This document shows, piece after piece, positions 13,481 to 38,541 of a DNA stretch of 64,000 nucleotides. The DNA is from Massilia frigida (GTDB lineage Bacteria > Pseudomonadota > Gammaproteobacteria > Burkholderiales > Burkholderiaceae_D), in the NCBI RefSeq assembly GCF_011682175.1, contig NZ_WHJG01000009.1, forward strand, positions 124,001 to 188,000. The letters run 5' to 3'. Under the pieces are notes generated by a model. It saw nothing but the letters and a program-made list of their open reading frames with translations. It was not told where the DNA came from and did no database searches. The position numbers and the translations under genes are program-made. Each line of letters starts with the position of its first letter. The stretch's first letter is position 1.

Positions 13481-14137
13481 TTAGCGCACATCTTGCACAA
13501 TTTGCAATCCCGAGCGGGTCAAAATGAGGGTTTTGTCGGCTTGCGCGGCCGCCGCGTGAGAATGTGTGACCATTATTGCACTGGCGCCGCTCGCTTTTAC
13601 TTCGTCCCGGAGCAAGGCCAAAATGCTGTCGGCGGTCTCCGGATCGAGGTTTCCGGTCGGTTCATCGGCCAGCACCAGGGCCGGGCGGTGCACCAGCGCG
13701 CGCGCGATCGCCACGCGCTGCATTTCGCCGCCGGACAGCTGGCGTGGAAAATCGCCGCCCCGGCCACCGAGGCCGACCGCCGCCAGCATGGCGCCGGCGC
13801 GTTCCTGGCTCTGGCCATTCAATAGCAGGGGCAGGGCCACGTTCTGCTCCAGGGTCAGGTGCGGCAGCACGTGGAAGGCCTGGAAGATGAAACCCATGCG
13901 GGTGCGGCGCAGGCTGGTGGCGGCATTGTCGTCGAGCGCCGACATGGGCTGGCCGTCGATCACGATGTCGCCGCTGTCGGGCGCATCGAGGCCGGCGATG
14001 AGGTTCAGCAGGGTCGACTTGCCGACCCCCGATTCGCCCATGATGGCGACGAATTCGCCGGCCTTGAATTGGTACGAGAGGCGGTTGAGCACCGGACGGC
14101 CGTTGTAGTTTTTGGCGAGATCGCGCAGTTCGAGCAT
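13481..14137 (-). CDS. ABC transporter ATPase of the LolD/MacB type
   Basis: 218 aa from ATG 14137 (an in-frame upstream start at 14218 would run through the end of the permease gene and is rejected). Walker A is GESGVGKST, the Q-loop region is FIFQAFHVLPHLTLEQNV, the signature is QLSGGEMQR, Walker B is ALVLADEPTGNLD and the H-loop is MVTHSH. This is the LolD/FtsE/MacB subfamily, not PhnC. It is the last gene of the PhnD-C-E-E operon (40 bp after permease 2), giving that operon two ATPases of different subfamilies. No partner FtsX/MacB-like permease is present, so it may serve the same importer or a distant partner. Confidence 0.88.
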   Translation of the reverse strand: MLELRDLAKNYNGRPVLNRLSYQFKAGEFVAIMGESGVGKSTLLNLIAGLDAPDSGDIVIDGQPMSALDDNAATSLRRTRMGFIFQAFHVLPHLTLEQNVALPLLLNGQSQERAGAMLAAVGLGGRGGDFPRQLSGGEMQRVAIARALVHRPALVLADEPTGNLDPETADSILALLRDEVKASGASAIMVTHSHAAAAQADKTLILTRSGLQIVQDVR

Positions 14138-14177: not shown

Positions 14178-14972
14178 CTAGCGGGTAAGGGCGCGCCGCA
14201 GCGCAAAGCTGGCGGCATCGACCAGGGCGACCAGCAGCAGCATGGCGATGATGACGGTGGCCGCGTTTTGCATCTGGAATAGCGACAGGTGGAACTTGAG
14301 CATCTGGCCGAGTCCGCCGGCGCCGACCACCCCGAGCACCGCGGCGGCGCGGATATTGTTCTCCCAGCGGTACAGGGTGTACGACAGCATCTGGGGCAGC
14401 GTTTGCGGCATGGTGGCGTACAAAAAGGCCGCCGCCGGGGCGGCGCCGTTGGTGAGCAGGGTGGTTTCGGGATGCGGGTCGGCGTTTTCGAGGGCGTCGG
14501 CGAACAGGCGTCCGAGCACGCCGCTGGTGTGCGCGGCCAGCGCCAGGGTGCCGGCGAACGGCCCCAGGCCGGCCGCCACCAGCAGCAGCGAGGCCCACAC
14601 CAGTTCCGGAATCGAGCGCAGCACGTTGAGCAGGCCGCGCGCGAGGGCGCGCTGCACTTTGCCCAGGCGCCCGGCGCCGGCCATGGCCAGCGCCATGCCG
14701 CCGGCCACCGCCAGCAAGGTGCCGATGGCCGACATCGAGAGCGTCTCGGCGGCGGCCAGCGCGGTCTTGCGCAGGAAGGCCGGAGAAGTTTCGGGCGGGG
14801 TGAAGCCGGCCAAAAATTCGCTGGTCACCGCGACCGCGTCGGGCGAGAAGAAGGCCGACCATTGCAGCGGCAGCGAGGCGAAGCTGGCGACGATGAGCGC
14901 CACGATGGCCGCCGCCAGCAGCCAGGTGGAGAGGCGGCGCGGTGGCGCGGCCGGCAGCTCGCGCGCGCTCAT
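14178..14972 (-). CDS. PhnE-type ABC permease (second of two)
   Basis: 264 aa from ATG 14972, which overlaps the stop of the upstream permease as ATGA (14969-14972), implying translational coupling. About six hydrophobic segments are visible. The cytoplasmic coupling loop reads NNIRAAAVLGVVGAGGLGQML, the EAA-type motif of phosphonate-family permeases. It is predicted to pair with the permease at 14969-15799 to form the membrane channel of the importer. The N-terminal extension in the longer open frame is the tail of the upstream gene read in another frame. Confidence 0.9.
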   Translation of the reverse strand: MSARELPAAPPRRLSTWLLAAAIVALIVASFASLPLQWSAFFSPDAVAVTSEFLAGFTPPETSPAFLRKTALAAAETLSMSAIGTLLAVAGGMALAMAGAGRLGKVQRALARGLLNVLRSIPELVWASLLLVAAGLGPFAGTLALAAHTSGVLGRLFADALENADPHPETTLLTNGAAPAAAFLYATMPQTLPQMLSYTLYRWENNIRAAAVLGVVGAGGLGQMLKFHLSLFQMQNAATVIIAMLLLVALVDAASFALRRALTR

Positions 14973-15799
14973 CCGAGCCGCCGGCGCAGCAGCTTGGACA
15001 CCGCATCGGCCAGCGCGACCAGCAGCACGAACATGATCAGCATGGTGCACACTTCGCCGCCGGCCATCATGCGGGTCGATTCATCCATGCGCTGGCCGAG
15101 CCCGCCGGCGCCGACAAAGCCGATCACCGCCGAGCCGCGGATGGCGCATTCCCAGCGGTAGACGGTGTACGAGACCAGTTCGGAGGCCGATTCGGGCAGC
15201 GCCCCATACAGGAGCGCGGCCAGGCGCGAACTGCCGTTGGCCAGCAGCGCGCCGGTGGCATGGGCGTCGGTCGATTCGAGGATTTCCGCGTACACCTTGC
15301 CCAGCATGCCGCTGTAGGTGAGCGCAATGGCCAGCACGCCGGCGGTCGGACCGAGGCCGGCCACGCGCACGAACAGGATGGCCCACACCAGTTCGGGCAC
15401 GCTGCGCAGCAGCACCAGCACCCAGCGCACCAGCTGGCGCAGCAGGCGGGCGGCCCAGTGCATGCGCCGCGTGCCCAGGCGCGAGATGGACAGGCGTTCG
15501 GTGATGATCAGGGTGGCTGGTATGGCGCCGAGCAGGGCCAGGGTCAGGCCGGCGGTGGCGATGGCCACCGTCTGCCAGGTTTCGCGCAGCACCATCGCCA
15601 GGAACTCGGGCGCGTGGGCGGGTTTCAGGAAGCCGGCCAGGAACTGGCTGGCCGCGCCCAGGCTTTGCAGGTCGAACAGGATCCAGGGCTTGAATTCGCT
15701 GAACACCAGGGCTGGCCACAGCAGGGCCGCGCCGATGGCGAGGATCGCCAGGCGCGCGCGCCAGGCCGGGTCGGGATGGTGGACGGTTGCCGCTGGCAT
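14969..15799 (-). CDS. PhnE-type ABC permease (first of two)
   Basis: 276 aa with about six membrane segments and the coupling motif IRGSAVIGFVGAGGLGQRM. It is homologous to its downstream neighbour (both carry RSIPELVWA/RSVPELVWA and GLGP.AG). It starts 3 bp after the PhnC-like ATPase stop. Together with 14178-14972 it forms a heterodimeric inner-membrane permease. Substrate specificity comes from the binding protein at 16633-17517. Confidence 0.9.
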   Translation of the reverse strand: MPAATVHHPDPAWRARLAILAIGAALLWPALVFSEFKPWILFDLQSLGAASQFLAGFLKPAHAPEFLAMVLRETWQTVAIATAGLTLALLGAIPATLIITERLSISRLGTRRMHWAARLLRQLVRWVLVLLRSVPELVWAILFVRVAGLGPTAGVLAIALTYSGMLGKVYAEILESTDAHATGALLANGSSRLAALLYGALPESASELVSYTVYRWECAIRGSAVIGFVGAGGLGQRMDESTRMMAGGEVCTMLIMFVLLVALADAVSKLLRRRLG

Positions 15800-15802
15800 G
15801 CG

Positions 15803-16618
15803 TCAGAAGCAGGCGCCGACGGCCAGCCGTTCGGGCGTTTCGTGCGCCTCGGGCGTGTGCTGCACCATGGCTTCATTCTGGTAGAGCGCCGCGATCATCT
15901 CGTCGCTGACGTCCTCGCGGGCGGCGTCGAACACGATGCGCCCGTCGCGCAGGCCGACGATGCGCGGAAAATGGGCGCGCGCCATGTCGACCTGGTGCAG
16001 GCTGCATATCAGCGTGGCGTTGCGGCGCACCGCTTCCTGCTGCAGGGTGGCCAGGGTCATCTGCGACAGCGCCGGGTCGAGCGCGGAGAGCGGCTCGTCG
16101 ACCAGGAACACGCGGGCCGACGAGAGCAGCAGGCGCGCCAGGCCGCAGCGCTGGCGCTCGCCGCCGGAGAGGCGGTCGACGCGCGCGTACAGTTTGTCGC
16201 CCAGGCCGAAGCGCACCAGCGCCGCGTGGGCGGCGTCGGGATCGGCCGGCTTGAACAGGGAGGCGAGCGCCTGGCCCAGGGTCCATTCGGGCAGGCGCGC
16301 CGCCAGCACCGCCGTGACCACGCGCTGGCGCGGCGGCAGGGGCGGCGTTTGCGGCGCCAGGAACAGGCTGGCGCGCAGCTTGTGGCGCGCCGCGCCGGGC
16401 AGGGTCCACGGATCCTGGCCGAGCACGCGCAGGGTGCCGCCGGTCGGCGCGTGGGCGCAGGCGAGGGTGGCCAGCAAGGTGGTCTTGCCGGCCCCGGACG
16501 GGCCGATCACGGCCAGCTGCTCGCCCTGCGCCACCGCCAGGTCGATCTCGTGCAAGGCGCTCGCCTGCGCGCCGGCCAGGTGACGCACGGTGAGCTTGCC
16601 GAGGCGGTAGGAGTCCAT
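15803..16618 (-). CDS. PhnC-type ABC importer ATPase
   Basis: 271 aa from ATG 16618. Motifs: GPSGAGKTT (Walker A), APQTPPLP Q-loop area, RLSGGERQR (signature), VFLVDEPLSALDP (Walker B) and CSLHQVDMARAHF (H-loop, typical of PhnC). The longer frame reaching 16909 only overlaps the binding-protein gene and has no ribosome site. The gene lies 14 bp after the binding-protein stop and 3 bp before the first permease. It powers import by the adjacent permease pair. Confidence 0.92.
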   Translation of the reverse strand: MDSYRLGKLTVRHLAGAQASALHEIDLAVAQGEQLAVIGPSGAGKTTLLATLACAHAPTGGTLRVLGQDPWTLPGAARHKLRASLFLAPQTPPLPPRQRVVTAVLAARLPEWTLGQALASLFKPADPDAAHAALVRFGLGDKLYARVDRLSGGERQRCGLARLLLSSARVFLVDEPLSALDPALSQMTLATLQQEAVRRNATLICSLHQVDMARAHFPRIVGLRDGRIVFDAAREDVSDEMIAALYQNEAMVQHTPEAHETPERLAVGACF

Positions 16619-16632
16619 GCGCGCGTACCTGC

Positions 16633-17517
16633 TTACTTGAGCAGCTTGGCGCTGCGCGCGGCCGCTTCGATGGCGCTGTAGTTTTCCGGCTTGGTCGGCA
16701 CGAACTTGCTGGCTTTTTGCAAGTCGAGGATTTCCTTGCCTTCCGGGGTGGACTTGTCGAGGGCGAGGAAAGCGTCGGTCAGCTTTTTCTTCATTGGCGC
16801 CGGCATGTCGGCGCGCACGGTCCAGTTGTAATCGAAGTAACCCGGGGTGGTGTAGAACACGCGCACGGCGGCCGGATCGACCTTCTTCTCGGCGACCAGT
16901 TTTTCCCATACCGAGATATTCAGTGCGCCGGCATCGACCTTGCCGCCGGCGACAGCGGCCACGGTGGCGTCGTGCGCGCCGGAGTAGGCCACGCGCTTGA
17001 GATCCGCGTCCGGATCGATTTTCGCGGCCAGCAGGTAGGAACGCGGCATCAGGTGGCCCGACGTGGACGACTCGGAGCCGAAGCTGAGGGTCTTGCCCTT
17101 GAGGTCATCGAGCTTGTTGATATCGGCCTTGGTGGTGACGAACACCGAGCGGAAGGCGGTGTCTTCCTGGCGCTGCACGAGCGGGGTGACCTGGCCCTTG
17201 CTGCGCACATTGGCCTGCACAAAGGTAAAGCCGCCGAACCAGACCAGGTCGAGGCGCTTGTTGACCAGTCCCTCGACCGCGGCCGGGTAATCGGTCACCG
17301 GCGTGAATTCGACTTTCAGGCCGGTGGCCTTGGCCAGGTAGTCGCCCAGCGGCTTGAACTTGCGCTGCAACTCGGTCGGTGCTTCGTCGGGAATGGCCGA
17401 TACGCGCAGCACGCCCGGCGTGACCTGGGCGATGGCGCTGCTGGCCAGCAGTGCGGTGGCGGCCAATGATGCAGCCAGCATGGACTTGAGGGTGCGCGGC
17501 GCGGAGAAGTGGGTCAT
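16633..17517 (-). CDS. Periplasmic binding protein of a PhnD-like importer (putative selenate/oxyanion type)
   Basis: 294 aa from ATG 17517 with AAGG five nt upstream. The signal peptide is MTHFSAPRTLKSMLAASLAA followed by a cleavage site near SSAIAQ. The mature protein has the PhnD-type two-lobe pattern (IPDEAPTELQRKFKPLGDYL, YPAAVEGLVNKRLDLVWFGG, TLSFGSESSTSGHLMPRSYL). From memory, the IPDEAPTEL/FGGFTFVQA pattern matches a PhnD-like group that databases label putative selenate ABC transporter binding protein, a name based on genomic context; phosphonate or phosphite remain alternatives. It is the first gene of a five-gene operon and is divergent from egtD. The window also encodes SelD and SenAB, which favours selenium. 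Confidence 0.85.
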   Translation of the reverse strand: MTHFSAPRTLKSMLAASLAATALLASSAIAQVTPGVLRVSAIPDEAPTELQRKFKPLGDYLAKATGLKVEFTPVTDYPAAVEGLVNKRLDLVWFGGFTFVQANVRSKGQVTPLVQRQEDTAFRSVFVTTKADINKLDDLKGKTLSFGSESSTSGHLMPRSYLLAAKIDPDADLKRVAYSGAHDATVAAVAGGKVDAGALNISVWEKLVAEKKVDPAAVRVFYTTPGYFDYNWTVRADMPAPMKKKLTDAFLALDKSTPEGKEILDLQKASKFVPTKPENYSAIEAAARSAKLLK

Positions 17518-17649
17518 GGTAGCCTTGTAGGGAGGTCGGGATGGATGCCGGCCAGCGAGCACGCTTGAACGCCGGGCGGACCGTTTAATACGGGATATTC
17601 AGCTATGATAACAAAAACACCTACGCAGCGATTTCGATTGAGTACTCCT

Positions 17650-18615
17650 ATGCCCACTTCCAGCTTTGCCGACGCGCGCGATGGGCGCGCCAGTGGCGCC
17701 ATCGTGTCCGAACTGACTGCCGGCCTGCTCGGCGGGAGCGCGGCCATCTCGCCCAAGTTCCTCTACGACGCGCTCGGTTCCCGGCTGTTCGAGGCGATTT
17801 GCGAGTTGCCCGAATATTATCCCACCCGCACCGAAGCGGCGATCGTGGCGCGCCACGGCGCCGACATCGCGCGCGCCGTGGGCGTGGGCAGCACGCTGAT
17901 CGACCTGGGTGCGGGTAATTGCGCCAAGGCGGCGCGCCTGTTCCCGCTGCTGCATCCGGCCCAGTATGTGGCGGTCGACATTTCCTACGATTTCCTGCGC
18001 GAATCCATCGAACGCTTGCAGCAGCGCTTTCCGCATATCGAGATGACCGGGCTGGGACTGGATTTTTCGGCGCATCTCGATTTGCCGGGTGTGGTACGGC
18101 CCGGCAAGCGCCTGTTCTTTTACCCGGGTTCGTCGATCGGCAATTACACGCCGGACCAGGCACGCGCCTTTCTCGGCCGCGTGCGCGACGAGTGCGACGA
18201 CGATGGCGCGCTGCTGATCGGGATCGACCTGGTCAAGGATGCCGCCACGCTCGACGCGGCCTATGACGACGCCATCGGCGTCACGGCCGCCTTCAACCTG
18301 AATCTCCTGCGCCATGTGAACCAGTTGCTGGGCGCCGACTTCAACGTGGCGCAGTGGCGCCACCGCGGCTTTTTCAACGCCGATGAAAGCCGGGTCGAGA
18401 TGCACCTGGAAGCGCGCGCAGCGCTCACCGTGCGCTGGCCGGGCGGGGAACGCCGTTTCGCGGCGGGCGAGCGGATTCATACCGAGAACAGCTACAAGTA
18501 CCGCCAGAGCGCGGCGGTGGGCTTGCTGGAACAATCGGGCTTTCAGAGCGTGCATGTGTGGACCGATCCGGACCAGTGGTTCGCGGTCATCTACGCGCGC
18601 GCCATTGCCCGATGA
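17650..18615 (+). CDS. egtD: L-histidine N-alpha-methyltransferase (hercynine synthase)
   Basis: 321 aa from ATG 17650. This start gives the usual ~35-residue lead to SPKFLYDALGSRLFEAIC; an upstream in-frame ATG at 17605 overlaps a possible -10 (TATGAT, 17604-17609). EgtD hallmarks: LPEYYPTRTEAAI, DLGAGNCAKAARLF (SAM loop), YPGSSIGNYTP, LIGIDLVKDAATL and AAFNLNLL. The enzyme trimethylates histidine to hercynine, the common precursor of ergothioneine and selenoneine. It overlaps egtB by 4 bp (ATGA), so the two are translationally coupled. It is divergent from the ABC importer across 132 bp. Confidence 0.95.
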   Translation: MPTSSFADARDGRASGAIVSELTAGLLGGSAAISPKFLYDALGSRLFEAICELPEYYPTRTEAAIVARHGADIARAVGVGSTLIDLGAGNCAKAARLFPLLHPAQYVAVDISYDFLRESIERLQQRFPHIEMTGLGLDFSAHLDLPGVVRPGKRLFFYPGSSIGNYTPDQARAFLGRVRDECDDDGALLIGIDLVKDAATLDAAYDDAIGVTAAFNLNLLRHVNQLLGADFNVAQWRHRGFFNADESRVEMHLEARAALTVRWPGGERRFAAGERIHTENSYKYRQSAAVGLLEQSGFQSVHVWTDPDQWFAVIYARAIAR

Positions 18616-19823
18616 GCATGCGCGACCTTTATGACGGCGTGCGCAAGCGTTCGCTGATGCTGGCCGAACCGCTGTCGGACGAAGACTGCGGCGCGCAGTC
18701 GATGCCCGACGCCAGTCCCATCAAATGGCACCTGGCGCATACCACCTGGTTTTTCGAGACGTTTATCCTGGAACGCTTCGAGGAAGGCTTCGCGCCGTTT
18801 CATCCGGCCTTCCGGGTGCTGTTCAACTCCTATTACAACGGCATTGGCGAGCGCCATCCGCGCGCCCAGCGTGGCGCCCTGACGCGTCCCGCCATGCGCG
18901 AGGTGCGTGCCTACCGCGCCAATGTCGATGCGCGCATGGGGCGCCTGCTGGCGCAGCAGGGCGGCGACGAGCTCCTCGGGTTGCTGGAACTGGGCTTGCA
19001 GCATGAGCAGCAGCACCAGGAATTGATGCTTACCGATGTCAAGCACCTGCTGGCGCAAAACGCCATGTGGCCCGCCTATATGGATAGTGCGCTGCCGCGC
19101 GCGCAGGGCGGCGCGGCGCTGGCGTGGATTGGTTTCGACGGCGGCCTGGCCGAGATCGGCCATGGGGATGACAGCTTCGGTTTCGACAACGAGCTGCCAC
19201 GCCATCGCCAGTATGTGGCGCCGTTCGCGCTGGCGTCGCGCCTGGTGAGCAATGGCGAGTACCTGGCGTTCATCGAGGCGGGCGGTTATCGCGAACCGTC
19301 TTTGTGGCTGTCGGAGGGCTGGGACCGGGTGGGCGAGCTGAAACTGGCGCATCCGCTGTACTGGCAGCGCGACGCGCACGGGCAGTGGCACGAATTTACC
19401 TTGCACGGCTTGCAGATGCTCGATGCGGCGCGGCCGGTGACGCATCTGTCGCTGTACGAGGCGGACGCGTTCGCGCGCTGGATGGATGCGCGCCTGCCGA
19501 CCGAGGCGGAGTGGGAAGTGGCCGCCGCCGGCATCGCGACCGCGTCTGGCGGCCTGCATCCGGCCGCCGCGCCGCAGGGCGGGGGGCTGACGCAAATGTT
19601 CGGGGAGTGCTGGCAGTGGACCAGCAGCAGCTACGCGCCGTATCCCGGCTATGCCTGCGCGCCCGGCGCGCTGGGCGAATACAACGGAAAATTCATGTTA
19701 AACCAGTATGTTCTGCGCGGTTCCTCGTGCGCCACGCCGCCCGGCCATGCGCGCGCCAGCTACCGCAACTTCTTCCCGGCCGGCGCGCGCTGGCAGTTCA
19801 CCGGCATCAGGCTGGCGCGATGA
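18612..19823 (+). CDS. egtB: Ergothioneine synthase EgtB (hercynine sulfoxide-forming iron enzyme)
   Basis: 403 aa from ATG 18612, overlapping the egtD stop. The N-terminal DinB-like part has the metal site HLAHTTWFFE and LQHEQQHQELML (H-x3-H-x-E), and a C-terminal FGE-sulfatase domain (LVSNGEYLAF, RLPTEAEWEVAA, VLRGSSCATPPGHARASYRN) follows. EgtB couples hercynine to cysteine or gamma-glutamylcysteine with O2. Which thiol is used cannot be read here. No egtA, egtC or egtE (C-S lyase) is in the window, so the last step must be encoded elsewhere. It is coupled (ATGA) to the yihY-like gene downstream. Confidence 0.93.
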   Translation: MSMRDLYDGVRKRSLMLAEPLSDEDCGAQSMPDASPIKWHLAHTTWFFETFILERFEEGFAPFHPAFRVLFNSYYNGIGERHPRAQRGALTRPAMREVRAYRANVDARMGRLLAQQGGDELLGLLELGLQHEQQHQELMLTDVKHLLAQNAMWPAYMDSALPRAQGGAALAWIGFDGGLAEIGHGDDSFGFDNELPRHRQYVAPFALASRLVSNGEYLAFIEAGGYREPSLWLSEGWDRVGELKLAHPLYWQRDAHGQWHEFTLHGLQMLDAARPVTHLSLYEADAFARWMDARLPTEAEWEVAAAGIATASGGLHPAAAPQGGGLTQMFGECWQWTSSSYAPYPGYACAPGALGEYNGKFMLNQYVLRGSSCATPPGHARASYRNFFPAGARWQFTGIRLAR

Positions 19824-30581: not shown

Positions 30582-30941
30582 CTACAGATCGAGGAACATG
30601 TCGAAACCGCCGTAAATCATGCGCTTGCCGTCGAAGGGCATGTCGGTCCCTTTCATGAAGTCGGCCATGCGCGGGTCTTTCATGACCTTGTCGTTGACTT
30701 CGTCGCGGTGGGCGCGCGATGCGTACACGATCCAGGAAAACACCACCGTCTCGCCGGGCTGCAAGTTGACGCTTTGGGGAAAAGAGGTGAGTTTACCGGG
30801 CTTGACGTCATCGGCGATGCATTCGCGGTATTGCAGCGCGCCGTGTTCGCGCCAGATGGCGCCGCAGGTCGTTGCCATGGCGCGATAACTTTCGATGTTG
30901 CTGGTAGGGAGGGGAAGGACGAAACCGTCGACATACGCCAT
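30582..30941 (-). CDS. DUF1428 family protein (YbaA-like)
   Basis: 119 aa from ATG 30941 (a second ATG directly before it, at 30944, is equally possible; AGGAGA lies upstream). MAYVDGFVLPLPTSNIESYR, ECIADDVKPGKLTSF, VVFSWIVYASRAHRDEVN and MPFDGKRMIYGGFDMFL match DUF1428, a dimeric ferredoxin-like fold of unknown function. Length is typical. It stands alone upstream of the leuA leader region. Confidence 0.9.
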   Translation of the reverse strand: MAYVDGFVLPLPTSNIESYRAMATTCGAIWREHGALQYRECIADDVKPGKLTSFPQSVNLQPGETVVFSWIVYASRAHRDEVNDKVMKDPRMADFMKGTDMPFDGKRMIYGGFDMFLDL

Positions 30942-31238
30942 CATGTTCTCCTGGAGATGCACAAGGTGGAACCGCACAATTGATCATACCCGTCCCGTAT
31001 TCGCAGGCCCGCACCATACCCAAATTATATTACCTGTGTTGCATTTCACCCATGAATGCAGGCTTCGCGCTGAATCGGATTGCCTTTCTGATGCCAGCAG
31101 TGCAGTAAATATCTTGTTGTTTGAATAAATACGTGCGGAAATCTTGTAAAATTGCACGTTATTTACTCACGCCCCGCCGATCTGCCGCAGGGGCGCGGGT
31201 TGGCCAAGGCGGCGCTTTTAATCAATCAAGGAATGTTT

Positions 31239-31964
31239 ATGCGTTTTGTAACTATTGCAACGGCTTTAACGATGGCGGGCGCGCTCGCTTGCGCCGCCCC
31301 GGCAAGCGCCGGCACGGCCGCATTGGGCCAGAATCTGATCGTCAATGGCGACGCTGAAGCGGGCGCGGGCTCGACCGATGGCGGCACGGTGCCGGTACCC
31401 GGCTGGAATGTCACGGGTGGCTTGACCTCGGTCCAGTACGGTGCCAGCGGCGGCTTCCCGTCGCCAAGCGACGCCGGTCCGCAAAACCGCGGCAAGAATT
31501 TCTTTGGCGGTGGCGTCAATACGGCGGCCTCGCGCGCGGTCCAGGTGATCGACCTGAGCGCGTTGAGCGGTGCCATCAATGCCGGACAGTCGCAATTCGA
31601 CCTGTCCGGCTGGCTGGGCGGCTATGCCACCCAGAACGATAACGCGACCCTGACCGCCGTCTTCCGCGACAGCACCGGCCAAAGCCTGTTCAGCACCAGC
31701 CTGGCGCCGGTCAGCGCGAGCGAGCGTGGCGGCCTGACCGGCTTCGCGTATCGCGACAGCCATGGCCTCATTCCGGTCGGCACCGCACTGGTCGACATCG
31801 TGCTCGACATGCGCCGCGTCGAAGGCAGCTATAACGATGGCTACGCCGACAACCTGTCGTTCTCGGTCACCGCCGTGCCGGAACCAGGTAGCTGGGCCAT
31901 GCTGAGCGCCGGCCTGGTCATGCTGGGCTTCGCGGCGCGCAAGCGCCGTGCCTCGGCCGCCTGA
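31239..31964 (+). CDS. PEP-CTERM sorted exported protein
   Basis: 241 aa from ATG 31239 (AAGGA seven nt upstream; ATG 31233 is too close to it). N-terminal signal peptide MRFVTIATALTMAGALACAA, Ala-x-Ala cut near PASAG. The C-terminus has the PEP-CTERM signal: VPEPGSWAMLSAG, a hydrophobic helix, then ARKRRASAA. The family is handled by exosortase/archaeosortase and ends at the cell surface or exopolysaccharide. The middle (LIVNGDAEAG, VPVPGWNVTGG, DLSALSGAINAGQSQFDLSG) is a carbohydrate-binding-like beta-sandwich with a DUF642-type look. No exosortase is in the window. The 260 bp before it hold only promoter-like AT-rich sequence. Confidence 0.92.
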   Translation: MRFVTIATALTMAGALACAAPASAGTAALGQNLIVNGDAEAGAGSTDGGTVPVPGWNVTGGLTSVQYGASGGFPSPSDAGPQNRGKNFFGGGVNTAASRAVQVIDLSALSGAINAGQSQFDLSGWLGGYATQNDNATLTAVFRDSTGQSLFSTSLAPVSASERGGLTGFAYRDSHGLIPVGTALVDIVLDMRRVEGSYNDGYADNLSFSVTAVPEPGSWAMLSAGLVMLGFAARKRRASAA

Positions 31965-32002: not shown

Positions 32003-33061
32003 TTATTGAGCGACCTGGACGCGCGGCGCGCCCGCCGTCATCTCGCCGATGACGGCGGCGCTCTCGAAACCTTCGCGCGCGAATAGCGCCAGGATCTCGT
32101 CCACGCTGCCCGGATCGCATGATACCAGCAGCCCGCCCGAGGTTTGCGGATCGGTCAGCAGCATGTGCTGCGCCTTGCTGATGCCCGGCGAGAGCGTGAC
32201 ATCCTTGCCGTAGGCATCCCAGTTGCGGCCCGACGCGCCGGTAAAATAACCGTCGTGCGCCAGCTGTTCCACGCCCGGCAGCAGCGGAATCTGCGACATG
32301 CTCAGCTGCGCCGTCAATTGCGAGCCGCGCGCCAGTTCCAGCAGGTGGCCCAGCAGGCCGAAGCCGGTGACGTCGGTCAGCGCATGCACCCCTTCCATCT
32401 CCGACAGCGCCTTGCCCGGCTTATTCAGTTTGGTGGTATTGGCGATCATGGCGGCGTAGCCTTCGGGTCCGAGCACGTCTTTTTTCAGCGCGGCCGAGAG
32501 TACGCCCACGCCCAGCGGCTTGCCGAGAATGAGCACATCGCCGGCACGCGCGTCGGCATTGCGCTTGACCTTGGACGGATGCACGAGGCCCAGCACCACC
32601 AGCCCGTAGATCGGCTCGACCGAATCGATCGTGTGGCCGCCGGCGATCGGAATGCCCGCTTCGGCGCACATGGTTTCACCGCCGCGGATGATCTGGCCGA
32701 TGGTTTCCAGCGGCAGTTTATTGATCGGCATGCCCACCAGCGCCAGTGCCATGATCGGCGTGCCGCCCATCGCATACACGTCCGAAATCGCATTGGTGGC
32801 GGCGATGCGGCCGAAATCGAAGGGATCGTCGACGATCGGCATGAAGAAATCGGTGGTGGCGATCAGCGCCTGTTCGTCATTGAGCTTGTAGACGGCGGCG
32901 TCGTCGGCGGTTTCGATACCGACCATCAATTCCTTGGGGACCGGGAAGCCGGTCGAGTTCTTGAGGATCTCGGACAGCACGCCGGGCGCGATTTTGCAGC
33001 CGCAGCCGCCGCCATGCGAGAACGAGGTGAGTTTGATGGGCGTTTCTGGGGCATTGCTCAT
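32003..33061 (-). CDS. selD: Selenide, water dikinase (selenophosphate synthetase); SenC of the selenoneine locus
   Basis: 352 aa. Makes selenophosphate from selenide and ATP. The catalytic segment FSHGGGCGCKIAPGVL places Cys20 and Lys23 at the positions of E. coli Cys17 and Lys20 (Cys form, not Sec). Others: TTDFFMPIVDDPFDFGRIAA, AMGGTPIMALALVGMPINKL, AGGHTIDSVEPIYGL, LTDVTGFGLLGHL and LTDPQTSGGLLVS. The gene starts 29 bp after senB in the same direction. No selA, selB or selU is nearby; the local use of selenophosphate is therefore the selenosugar made by SenB. It may also serve Sec or selenouridine synthesis encoded elsewhere. Confidence 0.97.
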   Translation of the reverse strand: MSNAPETPIKLTSFSHGGGCGCKIAPGVLSEILKNSTGFPVPKELMVGIETADDAAVYKLNDEQALIATTDFFMPIVDDPFDFGRIAATNAISDVYAMGGTPIMALALVGMPINKLPLETIGQIIRGGETMCAEAGIPIAGGHTIDSVEPIYGLVVLGLVHPSKVKRNADARAGDVLILGKPLGVGVLSAALKKDVLGPEGYAAMIANTTKLNKPGKALSEMEGVHALTDVTGFGLLGHLLELARGSQLTAQLSMSQIPLLPGVEQLAHDGYFTGASGRNWDAYGKDVTLSPGISKAQHMLLTDPQTSGGLLVSCDPGSVDEILALFAREGFESAAVIGEMTAGAPRVQVAQ

Positions 33062-33090
33062 GGTCGGTGTCCGTTTCGGTAAAAGGCAGG

Positions 33091-34053
33091 TCAGAGCAGA
33101 TTATCCACCAAGTCGCGCACACTGGCACGCTCGTGCTCTGGCGCGAACAAGGGGGCGCGCGCGTCGCACTGGCGCCGCAGCAGCGCATGGAAGGAAGCGT
33201 CGCCGATGCAGCGCTCGATCAGGCGCGCCAGCGCCGGCGCGTCGCCGGGCGCGAAATAGCCCGCGTAGCCGTCGCCCAGCATGCCGCGGTTGCCGCTGAT
33301 ATCGCTGGCCAGCACCGGCACGCCGCAGGTGAGCGCTTCGATAATGACGTTGGCGCCGCCTTCCATGTGCGAGGCGATCACCATGGCGTGGCTGCGCCGC
33401 AGGCGCTGGCGCGTGGCGGCATGCGGCATGGCGCCCAGCCAGCGATAACGCGGGGTGGCGGCCTGGGTGGCCACGGCAAGCTCGCCCAGGATGGGGTCGA
33501 GCGCGCCGCCGATATGCAGCAGGCGCGCCTTGGGGGCCGTCACCAGCGCCGCCGCGCCCATGAAGGTGCGCGGATCTTTTTCTTCGCGCAGATGGCCGAT
33601 CATGACGATGTCGATGAAGCGCCGCGCCGCCGCATGGCGGAAGGGCGTGAGCGAGGGCGCCGACTGGTGGATCACGCAGGCCCTGGCGCGCGCATCGGGC
33701 GCCAGCAGGGCCAGCCCGTCGGCCTGCAGCAGCACCAGCCTGCGGGCGTGGGCCAGCGATGCCTGGGCTGCGGCATCGGTGGCGATGTCGCGATACAGGT
33801 CGGTGCCGGTCAGTACCAGCACGCGCGCACGGTCGGGGAAAGCGGCGGCAAAAGCGGCCAGGGGGGCCGCCGAGCGGCGCGCATGCAGGGCGATCATCAG
33901 GTCGGGCGGGGGCGCGCTGGCGTCCCAGCCGGGGGCGATCGTCACGCGCCAGCGCGCGCGCAGGAAATGCGCCCAGCGGCTGGCGGTTTGCCAGTTGCCG
34001 TTGTTCTCCCGCTGCGATGCGGGGCTGACGATCAGCACGCGTGGTCGCTGCAC
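33091..34053 (-). CDS. senB: Selenosugar synthase SenB (GT-B glycosyltransferase-like)
   Basis: 320 aa from GTG 34053 with AAGGAG six nt upstream. N-terminal GT-B half: RVLIVSPASQRENNGNWQTA. C-terminal half: VIEALTCGVPVLASDISGNR and GYAGYFAPGDAPALARLIE, a GT4-like nucleotide-sugar site. Flanked by selD and senA, it fits SenB, which joins selenophosphate to a UDP-N-acetylhexosamine to give a selenosugar. It overlaps no gene; only 36 bp separate it from the divergent senA start, so the two share a control region. Without this context I would have called it a generic glycosyltransferase. Confidence 0.9.
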   Translation of the reverse strand: MQRPRVLIVSPASQRENNGNWQTASRWAHFLRARWRVTIAPGWDASAPPPDLMIALHARRSAAPLAAFAAAFPDRARVLVLTGTDLYRDIATDAAAQASLAHARRLVLLQADGLALLAPDARARACVIHQSAPSLTPFRHAAARRFIDIVMIGHLREEKDPRTFMGAAALVTAPKARLLHIGGALDPILGELAVATQAATPRYRWLGAMPHAATRQRLRRSHAMVIASHMEGGANVIIEALTCGVPVLASDISGNRGMLGDGYAGYFAPGDAPALARLIERCIGDASFHALLRRQCDARAPLFAPEHERASVRDLVDNLL

Positions 34054-34089
34054 CGCGGCTCCTTGAAAAAGTCGTTACAATTGGCTGCT

Positions 34090-35286
34090 ATGAGTTCAAT
34101 CACCGCATCCTTCCGGCACGCCAAGCCGCAGCAATTGGCCGAGGCGCTGCAAAGTGCGCGCCATTATACGCTCAGCCTGTTCGACTGCTTTGCCGGCATG
34201 GGCTTCGACAGCCTGTCGCGCGTGCCCCATATTGCCACGATCAACCCGCCGCTGTGGGAACTGGGGCATACGGCGTGGTTCGCCGAATGGTTCATCCTGC
34301 GCGAGGCGGCGTCCAGCCATCCGGCCGATGCCCAGCGCGGCTCGCTGCTCACGCGCGGCGACGACTGGTTCGATTCCAGCCTGGTGCCGCACCGCTCGCG
34401 CTGGACGCTCGACCTGCCCAGCCCCGGCGCGCTCAAGACCTACTGCCATGAAGTGCTGGACCGAACCCTCGACAAGCTGTCGCGCGAGGCGGGCACGGAC
34501 GAGGCCCTGTACCCGTACCGGCTGGCGCTGGCGCACGAGGACATGCACGGCGAAGCCTATCTGTATTCGATGCAGACCCTGGGCGTGGCGGCGCCCGCGC
34601 AGCTCACGCGCGACGCGGCGGTGCATTCGCAGGGAGCGCAGATCGCCTATCCCGGCGGGACCATCGTGCTGGGGGGAGGGCGGGAGGGTGGCTTCGTGTT
34701 CGACAACGAGAAAGCGGCGCACCCGGTCTACGTGGCGCCGTTTCGCATCGATGCGGGATTGGTGACGAATGCGCAGTTTGCCGACTTCGTGGCCGATGGC
34801 GGTTACCAGAACCGCCAGTACTGGAGCGCGGCCGGCAGCGCGTGGCTGATGCGCCAGGAGCGCTCGTCGCCGCGCTACTGGCAGCGCGACGCCGACCAGT
34901 GGCGCACGGTGCGCTTCGGGCGCCTGGCGACGCTGTCGCCGTCCGAGCCGGTGCGCCATGTGTGCCTGTTCGAGGCCCAGGCGTATTGCGCGTGGGCGCA
35001 GCGGCGCTTGCCCAGCGAAGCGGAATGGGAGTACGCGGCGCTGTCGGGGCAGGCGGGGTTCCGCTGGGGCCAGCTATGGGAGTGGACGGCCACGCCGTTC
35101 GAGCCGTATCCGGGGTTCGCGCCGGAGCGCTACCGCGAGTATTCGCAGCCGTGGTTCATGACCCATCAAGTGCTGCGCGGGGCCTCGTTCGCCACGCCGT
35201 CGCGCTTTGGCTCGGCGCGCTTCCGCAATTTCTTCATGCCCGAGCGGGATGATATTTTCTGCGGATTGCGTACCTGCGCCTATTGA
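34090..35286 (+). CDS. senA: Selenoneine synthase SenA (EgtB-like iron enzyme)
   Basis: 398 aa from ATG 34090. Same architecture as EgtB: DinB-like metal part with ELGHTAWFAEWFILRE and LAHEDMHGEAYLYS (H-x3-H-x-E), then an FGE-sulfatase domain (LVTNAQFADFVADGGY, RLPSEAEWEYAA, VLRGASFATPSRFGSARFRN). SenA couples hercynine to a selenosugar through a C-Se bond, leading to selenoneine. It differs from the EgtB at 18612 throughout, and its neighbours are senB and selD, which decides the call. Hercynine would come from the EgtD at 17650. Its 3' end overlaps the convergent DUF2867 gene by 7 bp. A longer frame upstream is antisense to senB. Confidence 0.92.
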   Translation: MSSITASFRHAKPQQLAEALQSARHYTLSLFDCFAGMGFDSLSRVPHIATINPPLWELGHTAWFAEWFILREAASSHPADAQRGSLLTRGDDWFDSSLVPHRSRWTLDLPSPGALKTYCHEVLDRTLDKLSREAGTDEALYPYRLALAHEDMHGEAYLYSMQTLGVAAPAQLTRDAAVHSQGAQIAYPGGTIVLGGGREGGFVFDNEKAAHPVYVAPFRIDAGLVTNAQFADFVADGGYQNRQYWSAAGSAWLMRQERSSPRYWQRDADQWRTVRFGRLATLSPSEPVRHVCLFEAQAYCAWAQRRLPSEAEWEYAALSGQAGFRWGQLWEWTATPFEPYPGFAPERYREYSQPWFMTHQVLRGASFATPSRFGSARFRNFFMPERDDIFCGLRTCAY

Positions 35287-35828
35287 TGCGCGCCAGCCTC
35301 GGGCCATCCGGCGCGCGCCGCGCTGCGCAAACTGGCTTTGACGACGGCGCGGTGAAAGGGCGCAATGACGCGCAGGTAGGTTCGTCCCAGCAGGTTGTGG
35401 CAGTGAACCACCGTTGTCATGGTCAGCTCGCGCCTGTTGTCCGGCGCTGGTCCGCCCGCGCACAGGATCGAGATCCGGAAATCGAGGTGCTTGTCGTCTT
35501 CCCCGACCACGATCTCGCTCTCGTTCGTGCTGTAGACTTTGAAGATGCCAACCCGGGAAGGCTCCGTTTCACTGGCGATTTTCGCCAGTTGCGTGGCCGT
35601 TTTCAGGCCCAGGCCGACGACGATCATGTCGCGCACACGCAGGAGGTGTCCGATCCACGCAGGCTGGTGCGCAAAGATGAAACGGGCCAGCACATCCGGG
35701 TCGGCCGATGCGCCCGGCGGCAGCCGGATCGCAAATGCATCCGCCAGGTTCACCGATGCAAAGACGTTGTTGACGCCGCAGTGCGCGGGGAGCGCAACGG
35801 CAGTTGCGAGCGTGAATTCATTCGGCAT
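35280..35828 (-). CDS. DUF2867 domain protein
   Basis: 182 aa from ATG 35828 with GGGAG eight nt upstream; the longer frame to 36071 has no ribosome site. FIFAHQPAWIGHLLRVRDMI, GIFKVYSTNESEIVVGEDDK and RTYLRVIAPFHRAVVKASL match DUF2867, a START-like family of unknown role. Cytosolic. Convergent with senA with a 7-bp overlap. No obvious link to selenium. Confidence 0.85.
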   Translation of the reverse strand: MPNEFTLATAVALPAHCGVNNVFASVNLADAFAIRLPPGASADPDVLARFIFAHQPAWIGHLLRVRDMIVVGLGLKTATQLAKIASETEPSRVGIFKVYSTNESEIVVGEDDKHLDFRISILCAGGPAPDNRRELTMTTVVHCHNLLGRTYLRVIAPFHRAVVKASLRSAARAGWPEAGAHQ

Positions 35829-36030
35829 TCGGATACTCCCGTGGTTGAACGCGTTAACTAAACATCCAGGTTGACGTTTTGTCCAGGCAAGTGTACCGCG
35901 TTTACGTGATTCGGGTGCTATGCCGCGCCGCGCTCCCTGCACGCCGCGTCTCGTTCGTCCTCGCTGCTGCGAGGTCCGCAACATCGATACCACGGCCACC
36001 AACGGCGTGCGTCGACTGGGCTGTGCGCTG

Positions 36031-38541
36031 TCATTCGATCGCCATGAACTGGCGGAAGGCATCGCGCACATTATCGCGCAGCAGGTTGTTGTCCCACGGC
36101 TTGGTATAAAAACGAAAAATCGCGCCGCAGTTGACTGCCTTCATGATCGATTCCAGATCGGTTTGTCCGGACAGGACGATGCGAAACGTCTTCGGATAGA
36201 GTTCCTTGACCTTGTCCAGGAACTCCGTTCCACTCATGGCCGGCATGCACTGGTCGCACAAGATCACCTGCACCTCGTTCAAGGCCAGGACGTCGAAGCC
36301 TTCGGCCGCCGAGCGCGCGGACAGGATGTGGTAGCCGTCGCGGCCGAACAGATTGACCAGTACGTCGAGCATGAATGGGTCGTCGTCAATGATCAGCAAG
36401 CTCTTTTGGGCTTGCTCGCTGCCCTCCGGCGGCGGCAGGCCTTGGTCTTGCAGCAGCATCTCGGCGACCTGATCGGCGGGCAGGGGACGGCTGAAGTAAA
36501 AGCCCTGGATCTGGTCGCAATGGTGGCGCCGCAGATAATTGAGCTGGGCGGCAGTCTCGACGCCTTCGGCAATCACGTCGAGCTTGAGACTGTGGGCCAT
36601 GCTGATGATGGCCAGCACGATGGCGGCGTCATCGGGATTGGTGGTGACGTCGCGGATGAAGGCGATGTCGATCTTCAGTTTATCGATCGGAAAGCGGCGC
36701 AGGTAAGCCAGGCTCGAATAGCCGGTGCCGAAATCGTCGATGGAAATCTGCACCCCGTGCTGTTTGAGCCTGTGCAAGATATCGGTGGTGCGCTCGGTAT
36801 TGGCCATCAGCGAGGTTTCGGTCAGCTCCAGGTCGAGCAGGTCGGCCGGGATGCCGTGCCGGGCCAGCCCCTTGATGATATCTCCGTCCAGGTCGCCTTC
36901 CGCAAATTGCCTCCCCGAGACGTTGACCGACACCTGGATCGGGCCCACCGGCGAGCGCAGCCACAAGCCGATCTGCCGGCACGCCTCTGCCACCACCCAA
37001 CTGCCCACTTGCACGATCATCCCCGTCTCTTCCAGCACTGAAATGAATTCATTCGGCGCGACCATGCCATGGCCGGGGCGGTGCCAGCGCAGCAGCGCTT
37101 CCAGACCCGCGATGCGCCCGCTGTTGAGATGCGCCTTGGGCTGGTAATCCAGCACGAATTCTTCGTTTTCAATCGCCTTGCGCAATGCCGTCTCGAGGGC
37201 CAGGCGGGCCAGCACGTTGGCGTTCATCTGGGCGGTGAAGAAGCGGTAAGTGTCGCGCCCGGCGTGCTTGGCCTGGTACATCGCCGTATCGGCGTACTTG
37301 ATCAAGGTGTCCGGATCGGAGGCGTCGTCCGGATGGACCGTGATGCCGATGCTGGCGGTGATAGTGACTTCGTGCCCGCGCAGGATAAACGGTGCGCGCA
37401 AGACGGCGCGGATCTTTTCGGCGATCAGTACCGCGCCCTGCTGGCCATCCTGCATGATCAGGATCAGGGCGAATTCGTCGCCGCCCAGGCGGCCGACCGT
37501 GTCGCGCATGCGCACGCATTGCACCAGGCGGTTGCTGAACTGCAGCAGCAGCTCGTCGCCGATCGCGTGCCCCAGGGTGTCGTTGATACTCTTGAAATTG
37601 TCGAGGTCGAGGAACATGACCGCGACCAGCGCGCCGTTCCCGCGCGCCAGCGCCAGGGTGCGCTGCAAGGTATCATAAAACAGTGTCCGGTTGGGCAGGC
37701 CCGTCAGGGGATCGTGATGGGCCAGGTGGGTCAGGCGCGTTTCCGCTTGCTTGCGCTCGGTAATGTCGCGCACCACCACCACAATGGTCCAGTCGGTACC
37801 GGAGCGCATCGCCTGGCTGTGCATTTCCACCTGCACGGTCGCGCCATCCTTGCACGTCATCTTTGTTTCCCGCTGGTCGCGGCTGGCGCCGTCGACGATG
37901 AGCGCGTCATACAGGTATTCCAGCGTGGCGCGGCTCGCCTGGACCAGCTCGGTAGGGCCCATGCCCAGCATGTCCGCGCGCGTGTAGCCGAGCAAAGTGC
38001 AAGCGGTCTCATTGACCTCGGTAAACCGCATGCTGTTGCGGCTGATCAGCATGATGGCATCGGCGGTGGCATCCATCGCCGTGCGAAAGCGCTGCAGGTC
38101 GACCGTGCGCGCCAGTACCTGGCGTTCCAGCTTGGCACTGTGGTCCTGCAGGTCGCCGTACGCTTTCAGGCGCAGCAGGTTGCGCACCCTTAACCATAGT
38201 TCGGCGCGGTCGACCGGTTTGGTCAGGAAGTCTTCGGCCCCGGCATCGAGGCCGGCCAGGCGCGCGGTGCGCTCCATGTGCGCGGTGACCATGATGATGG
38301 GAATGTTGGCGGTGGCCGGATCGGCCTTGAGGATGCTGGCGACCCGATAGCCATCCATGCCCGGCATGGTAATGTCGAGCAGGATCAGGTCCGGTGCCGA
38401 CGCGCCGATGGCGGCCAGCGCTTCCTCGCCGCTGGCCGCAGCGCGGGTGCTGTAGCCCTCGGGCTGCAACAGGACCGCCAGCAGGCGCCGGTTCTGTGCT
38501 TCGTCGTCGACGATCAGGATGGTGGGTGCGCGCAGCGTCAT
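36031..38541 (-). CDS. REC-PAS-GGDEF-EAL-REC c-di-GMP signalling protein
   Basis: 836 aa from ATG 38541, overlapping the stop of the upstream response regulator by 4 bp. Order: REC (ILIVDDEAQNRRLL, LILLDITMPGMDG), linker, PAS, GGDEF (LGGDEFALIL, intact), EAL (LEALLRWHRP, ELTETSLM, DDFGTGYSSLAYL, intact), and a second REC (LLIIDDDPFMLDVL, VILCDQCMPAMSG) of the type seen in RpfG-like proteins. Soluble. Having REC domains at both ends is unusual and suggests two phospho-inputs, probably from the hybrid kinase at 38928. Net cyclase or phosphodiesterase output cannot be judged. Confidence 0.93.
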   Translation of the reverse strand: MTLRAPTILIVDDEAQNRRLLAVLLQPEGYSTRAAASGEEALAAIGASAPDLILLDITMPGMDGYRVASILKADPATANIPIIMVTAHMERTARLAGLDAGAEDFLTKPVDRAELWLRVRNLLRLKAYGDLQDHSAKLERQVLARTVDLQRFRTAMDATADAIMLISRNSMRFTEVNETACTLLGYTRADMLGMGPTELVQASRATLEYLYDALIVDGASRDQRETKMTCKDGATVQVEMHSQAMRSGTDWTIVVVVRDITERKQAETRLTHLAHHDPLTGLPNRTLFYDTLQRTLALARGNGALVAVMFLDLDNFKSINDTLGHAIGDELLLQFSNRLVQCVRMRDTVGRLGGDEFALILIMQDGQQGAVLIAEKIRAVLRAPFILRGHEVTITASIGITVHPDDASDPDTLIKYADTAMYQAKHAGRDTYRFFTAQMNANVLARLALETALRKAIENEEFVLDYQPKAHLNSGRIAGLEALLRWHRPGHGMVAPNEFISVLEETGMIVQVGSWVVAEACRQIGLWLRSPVGPIQVSVNVSGRQFAEGDLDGDIIKGLARHGIPADLLDLELTETSLMANTERTTDILHRLKQHGVQISIDDFGTGYSSLAYLRRFPIDKLKIDIAFIRDVTTNPDDAAIVLAIISMAHSLKLDVIAEGVETAAQLNYLRRHHCDQIQGFYFSRPLPADQVAEMLLQDQGLPPPEGSEQAQKSLLIIDDDPFMLDVLVNLFGRDGYHILSARSAAEGFDVLALNEVQVILCDQCMPAMSGTEFLDKVKELYPKTFRIVLSGQTDLESIMKAVNCGAIFRFYTKPWDNNLLRDNVRDAFRQFMAIE

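Follow-up and report, generated by a model that had tools for sequence, protein, structure and literature searches.

The closest described counterpart of the locus considered here is the senABC gene set of Variovorax paradoxus, reportedly described by Kayrouz et al. in 2022. Selenoneine formation in V. paradoxus comprises three enzyme steps (PMC9814287), and the same chemistry is treated in two further sources (PMC10702425 and PMC10903977). This analysis concerns a 64,000-nucleotide stretch of Massilia frigida (contig NZ_WHJG01000009.1, positions 124,001 to 188,000; here, the window), which carries the same three gene families as V. paradoxus senABC, together with egtD, egtB and an ATP-binding cassette (ABC) importer divergent from egtD. 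Judged from its sequence, the window very probably encodes a functional route to the selenium antioxidant selenoneine, of the established senABC type and with precursor genes nearby, and on this basis the sen locus is a reliable but unremarkable example of that pathway. The part most worth experiment is the importer beside the sen and egt genes.

In the proposed pathway, EgtD would trimethylate histidine to give hercynine, SelD/SenC would form selenophosphate from selenide and adenosine triphosphate, and SenB would transfer the selenium onto a uridine diphosphate sugar. SenA, a putative non-haem iron enzyme, would then use O2 to join the selenosugar to hercynine, and the selenoxide would break down and be reduced to selenoneine. 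EgtB would draw on the same hercynine for ergothioneine, the selenophosphate made by SelD would also be supplied to MnmH for tRNA selenouridine, and the importer would most likely bring in a selenium oxyanion.

Identity of the sen and egt genes

Families were called with curated NCBIfam models and their cut-offs, applied to the proteins of the window. All five products of senABC, egtD and egtB exceeded these cut-offs and thus match their families far beyond chance. The first-pass annotation had proposed a senABC set at 32003 to 35286, and SelD/SenC, SenB and a divergent SenA were each placed there with a score over the curated cut-off. SelD scored 548.1 bits with NF002098 (cut-off, 299) and 438.5 bits with TIGR00476 (cut-off, 125), and matched the solved SelD 3u0o at 334 bits; Cys20 and Lys23, both named previously, are at those positions and align to the GCGCK motif of 3u0o. 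SenB scored 400.9 bits with TIGR04348 (cut-off, 300), and its best PDB matches were 8k5u (283.9 bits) and 8jjn (V. paradoxus chains; 272 bits). Its GTG start is preceded at 5 nt by AAGGAG, and its stop lies 29 bp from the start of selD on the same strand. EgtD reached 376.3 bits with TIGR03438 (cut-off, 290.9), so a hercynine source is encoded in the genome. EgtD and EgtB had been assigned to 17650 to 19823; both genes and the end at 19823 were confirmed, and EgtD is placed from 17605, with 17650 a later in-frame ATG and possible start in the same frame.

The senA frame, which sits inside a longer open frame beginning at 33067, encodes a protein that scored 531.7 bits with the SenA model NF041186 (cut-off, 420) and 94 with the signature TIGR04373 (cut-off, 71). 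The same protein fell under the cut-off of the EgtB model TIGR03440 (290.8 bits; cut-off, 360) and far under that of the OvoA model (104.3 bits; cut-off, 400). The EgtB of the window showed the opposite pattern, with 554.8 bits against TIGR03440 and 381.6 bits, below 420, against the SenA model; it is closest to EgtB of C. thermophilum type (PDB 8qf6, 431 bits, versus 120 bits for 4x8b). The best PDB matches of the window SenA were SenA 8ryz/8k5i (321 bits), followed by OvsA (204.8 bits) and EgtB (180.3 and 154.7 bits).

A tree of 53 rows (IQ-TREE, LG+C20, 200 bootstrap trees) separated 37 SenA rows from 14 EgtB rows with support of 100/100, and the split was present in 100% of the 200 bootstrap trees. 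The window SenA fell with 8RYZ, a SenA of V. paradoxus type, and 35 further SenA rows, in line with the model scores and with the SenA assignment made for 34090 to 35286 in the first-pass annotation. The window EgtB stood among the remaining EgtB rows. Type I EgtB 4X8B and OvsA were on the SenA side of the split.

The candidate iron ligands H60, H149 and H153 of the window SenA were kept in 37, 36 and 36 of the 37 SenA rows, respectively; they correspond to EgtB's three iron-ligand histidines. Y348 and Y351 were found in all 37 SenA rows, as were D388 and C396, which also occur in OvsA but not in EgtB. Compared with EgtB of C. thermophilum and M. thermoresistibile types, the window SenA shares the fold family, the iron ligands and an FDNE motif; it differs in scoring below the EgtB cut-off and in 54 almost invariant positions that set SenA apart from 13 EgtB rows. 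As a separate observation, Noviherbaspirillum autotrophicum (G009:C17:1632140-1633306) carries a second SenA, approximately 2.3 kb from an EgtB, in which two paired iron-ligand histidines are replaced by Tyr and Arg; from these replacements, this copy is probably not an active oxygenase.

Table 1. Features of the window, with positions counted from its first nucleotide
Feature	Position	Strand	Details and basis
LolD/FtsE-like ATPase gene	13481-14137	-	Directly behind the importer's second permease
Importer second permease, PhnE-like	14178-14972	-	234 bits, over cut-off 217
Importer first permease, PhnE-like	14969-15799	-	186 bits, under cut-off 217
Importer ATPase, PhnC-like	15803-16588	-	183 bits, under PhnC cut-off 266
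Importer substrate-binding protein	16633-17562	-	TIGR04553, 394.7 bits (cut-off 250); possible ATG start 17517; divergent from egtD
egtD, histidine N-alpha-methyltransferase (hercynine supply)	17605-18615	+	TIGR03438; possible later start 17650
egtB (ergothioneine)	18612-19823	+	TIGR03440; start at 18558 in the open reading frame list
DUF1428 protein	30582-30977	-	Neighbor of sen genes
PEP-CTERM protein	31152-31964	+	Neighbor of sen genes
selD/senC, selenophosphate synthetase	32003-33061	-	352 amino acids; Cys20, Lys23; NCBIfam
senB, selenosugar synthase	33091-34053	-	320 amino acids; GTG start; NCBIfam
Intergenic region senB/senA	34054-34089		36 bp; divergent genes
senA -10-like box TACAAT	34076-34081	+	8 nt 5' of senA ATG
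senA, selenoneine synthase	34090-35286	+	398 amino acids from ATG at 34090; NCBIfam, tree, residues
DUF2867 protein	35280-36071	-	Neighbor of sen genes

The three neighbors of the sen genes listed in Table 1 (DUF2867, DUF1428 and PEP-CTERM proteins) have, to our knowledge, no known role in selenium metabolism. An Rfam scan of the whole window returned no families at gathering score.

Sen genes in the family and alternatives for SenA

The family sample comprised 145 genomes, of which 59 carried SenB and 70 a SenA over cut-off. In the SenB genomes, senA was divergent beside senB in 52 of 59 (a count that includes G096, the same sequence as locus L048) and selD followed senB in 55; SelD and MnmH were present in all 59, and SelA in 18. 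Three SenB genomes (G016, G100 and G146) had no SenA over cut-off. Among the SenB relatives of the window, 44 loci were compared, 42 of which (L013 to L054) carry a sen-type match. They are mostly from Massilia, Duganella and Telluria, and SelD identity reached 95 to 97% in M. rubra, M. mucilaginosa, M. atriviolacea and M. aquatica. At these 42 loci, senA was divergent beside senB in 32 and was not seen there in 10, at one of which (L031) the contig ends. Nine named genomes lack senA beside senB: four have SenA elsewhere, and five Massilia genomes (G001 and G003 to G006; loci L016, L020, L025, L026 and L027) have senB-selD with only an ordinary EgtB and no SenA over cut-off. The EgtBs of these five genomes intermingle in the tree with those of SenA-bearing genomes.

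Three sets of observations weigh against a straightforward selenoneine assignment. Firstly, 14 of the 145 genomes (e.g., G017, G055 and G134) have SenA over cut-off without SenB, and therefore a match to the SenA model alone is no proof of selenoneine synthesis; in the window, SenB is present. Either another selenium donor is used in those genomes or the SenA model is too wide. Secondly, support for the branch separating SenA from OvsA is weak (95/47), and long branches, flagged by the tree program, are present in the tree. Thirdly, three donor-pocket residues of V. paradoxus SenB, R22, V157 and H235, are replaced by Q22, E158 and N235 in the window SenB. Q, E and N occupy these positions in 39, 40 and 39 of 41 related loci, respectively, making this a clade-wide change of the donor pocket. 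According to PMC10891094, V157 of V. paradoxus SenB touches the donor sugar at its N-acetyl group and K158 is required for Se-P cleavage. Since V157 is replaced here, the donor preference of the window SenB may differ from that of the V. paradoxus enzyme. The lysine equivalent to K158 is K159 in the window SenB and is conserved in all 41 loci; N20, E231 and E239 are each found in 40 of the 41, with one gap each, T23 is also retained in the window, and the EGGA motif is present (EGGANV versus EGGAHV in V. paradoxus).

Two other identities for the product of 34090 to 35286 were weighed. A sulfoxide synthase of EgtB or OvoA type, leading to a second route to ergothioneine or to ovothiol, would belong to the same superfamily and would explain the kept iron ligands, and the genomes with SenA but no SenB leave room for members that may not use a selenosugar. 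Against this, the model scores and the grouping with 8RYZ led to its rejection, and its gene family lies divergent beside senB in most SenB genomes, as given above. In addition, SenA-only genomes score 448 to 501 bits with the SenA model and SenB genomes with a whole SenA match 490 to 543, and the window genome, at 531, sits in the latter range; an EgtB or OvoA identity is thus very improbable. Least likely of all is a selenoxide synthase of OvsA type (8UX5, from the ovoselenol pathway) making an ovoselenol-like product: among solved structures OvsA comes directly behind SenA, it shares S96, R386, D388 and C396 with SenA and it profits from the weak SenA/OvsA branch, but it is 37.3% identical to the window protein as opposed to 44.6% for SenA 8RYZ, matches it at 205 rather than 321 bits, and would leave the passed SenA equivalog cut-off to be accounted for.

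In the genome (7.79 Mb; estimated 100% complete), a single SelD over cut-off and a single MnmH were found. A genome search found no SelA, and no tRNA-Sec was found at gathering score (best, 45.5 versus 47; of 1155 first-look candidates, 150 were scored). Since SelA was not found, the idea that SelD serves selenocysteine synthesis was rejected. As this is the only SelD found in the genome, it would also feed MnmH; the single SelD must serve at least two customers, selenoneine and the selenouridine made in tRNA by MnmH. An MnmH fusion suspected from an 801-amino-acid open frame was rejected, as MnmH starts at an internal Met and is of ordinary length.

The 36-bp region between senB and senA had been described as a shared control region. 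Its length was confirmed, and its control role found support on the senA side only: a -10-like box precedes senA, while a promoter scan gave no call and no -10-like box was seen upstream of senB. TACAAT (TAGAAT in two loci) lies 5 to 8 nt 5' of the senA ATG at all 31 loci compared, those of the window and of 30 relatives, where mononucleotide shuffles of 25 bases predict TA[CG]AAT by chance in 0.51 of 31. The count omits L050, for which a start codon was not found, and L051, in which the spacing is too large; a control set with further filters held 29 senA rows. The same search at other genes of the sen loci found TA[CG]AAT at 0 of 40 senB, 0 of 39 selD, 0 of 23 leuA and 0 of 7 egtB genes. The box is probably a -10 element that would start the senA mRNA at or beside the ATG, giving a nearly leaderless mRNA. 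Some points count against a leaderless senA: the loci in the box count are related, the nearest ATG served as the start of each, and a consensus sigma-70 scan, which needs a -35 element, called no promoter at the box, where no -35 is recognizable.

A candidate selenium importer beside egtD

The first-pass annotation made no mention of an ABC importer at 14178 to 17562. Its binding protein exceeds the cut-off of TIGR04553, a curated model named 'putative selenate ABC transporter'. Reviews of 2022 and 2026 state that a high-affinity selenium transporter has not been identified and name no dedicated bacterial system. In PMC13077682 and PMC9426549, 'selenate ABC transporter' appears only as an annotation, and one of the two reads it as efflux; the term also occurs in PMC3781023.

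TIGR04553 was over cut-off in 76 of the 145 family genomes. SelD was present in all 76 and in 53 of the remaining 69 genomes (Fisher, 2.5e-6), MnmH in all 76 and in 55 of the remaining 69 (Fisher, 1.4e-5); SenB was found in 40 of 76 and 19 of 69, respectively (Fisher, 0.0024), and no association was seen with SelA (28/76 versus 20/69; p, 0.38), all of these tests ignoring kinship among genomes. In 23 of the 76, from five genera, the importer lies directly behind selD on the same strand, at 209 to 379 bp match to match, and two genomes (G032 and G065; loci L093 and L107) have the gene order senB-selD-importer. It was located within 3 kb of egtB in at least 34 genomes of at least 10 genera, at least 31 of them with SenB and at least 33 with the two on opposite strands. 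Among the best 30 importer loci, a divergent egtD adjoins in 14, selD in 8 and neither in 8; the ATPase, which adjoins the binding protein, and a permease are kept in all 30. No importer genes were found within 5 kb of the 44 related SenB loci, and no word of at least 8 bases was listed as common to the egtD/importer gap and the senA/senB gap. In G107, the TIGR04553 copy has a stop codon within the match.

The solved proteins closest to the importer binding protein are phosphonate or phosphite binders. Pm_PhnD (5LQ5), the binding protein of a marine PhnDCE system, is 39.1% identical over 256 positions, and its pocket residues are named in PMC5700983. According to the same source, the P-H of phosphite is packed against a tyrosine cap in such binders, and phosphate binds 2 to 4 orders weaker. 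D59, Y92, S166, T167, S168, H197, D244 and Y245 of the window protein correspond to D13, Y46, S126, T127, S128, H158, D205 and Y206 of Pm_PhnD, and all eight are identical in the window protein and in 30 of 30 relatives, so that the STS-H motif (S166, T167, S168 and H197) and the tyrosine cap (Y245) are present. Selenite is a three-oxygen pyramidal anion of approximately the size of phosphite, with a lone pair in place of the P-H bond. If the protein binds selenium, selenite would suit this pocket better than the four-oxygen selenate; otherwise, the ligand would be phosphite itself. Selenate should be excluded as phosphate is, because it has four oxygens, and selenite could sit under the tyrosine cap.

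We tentatively read 14178 to 17562 as a dedicated high-affinity selenite importer, in which a phosphite-type binding protein would have been taken over for selenium. A credible but second-placed alternative is that the TIGR04553 importer takes up phosphite (or phosphonate) and lies outside selenium metabolism. The identity of the complete phosphite pocket, cap included, in the window and all 30 relatives weighs for this alternative, as do the solved relatives; likewise, G104, which has neither SelD nor MnmH, reaches 238 bits with TIGR04553 in a partial match, little short of the 250-bit cut-off. On the other side stand the SelD and MnmH found in every importer genome, the positions behind selD and behind senB-selD, the divergent egtD at 14 of the best 30 loci, and the selenate name of the curated model; if the importer binds phosphite, its tie to selD needs another reason. 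Unlike PtxABC and PhnDCE, with which it shares the pocket residues, the importer of the window type occurs together with selD, mnmH, egtD and senB, scores over the cut-off of the model named for selenate and has two permease genes.

Meaning for M. frigida and its relatives

As the first-pass annotation had suggested, a genome of the Massilia group appears from its gene content to have the means to make ergothioneine as well as selenoneine, and the layout of its sen genes is common in the family. The importer is a named candidate beside a selenium-using pathway, and every genome that carries it over cut-off also has SelD; its pocket predicts selenite rather than selenate as the ligand. If the selenite reading holds, the importer together with egtD, egtB, senA, senB and selD would let the window provide for selenium all the way from its uptake to selenoneine.

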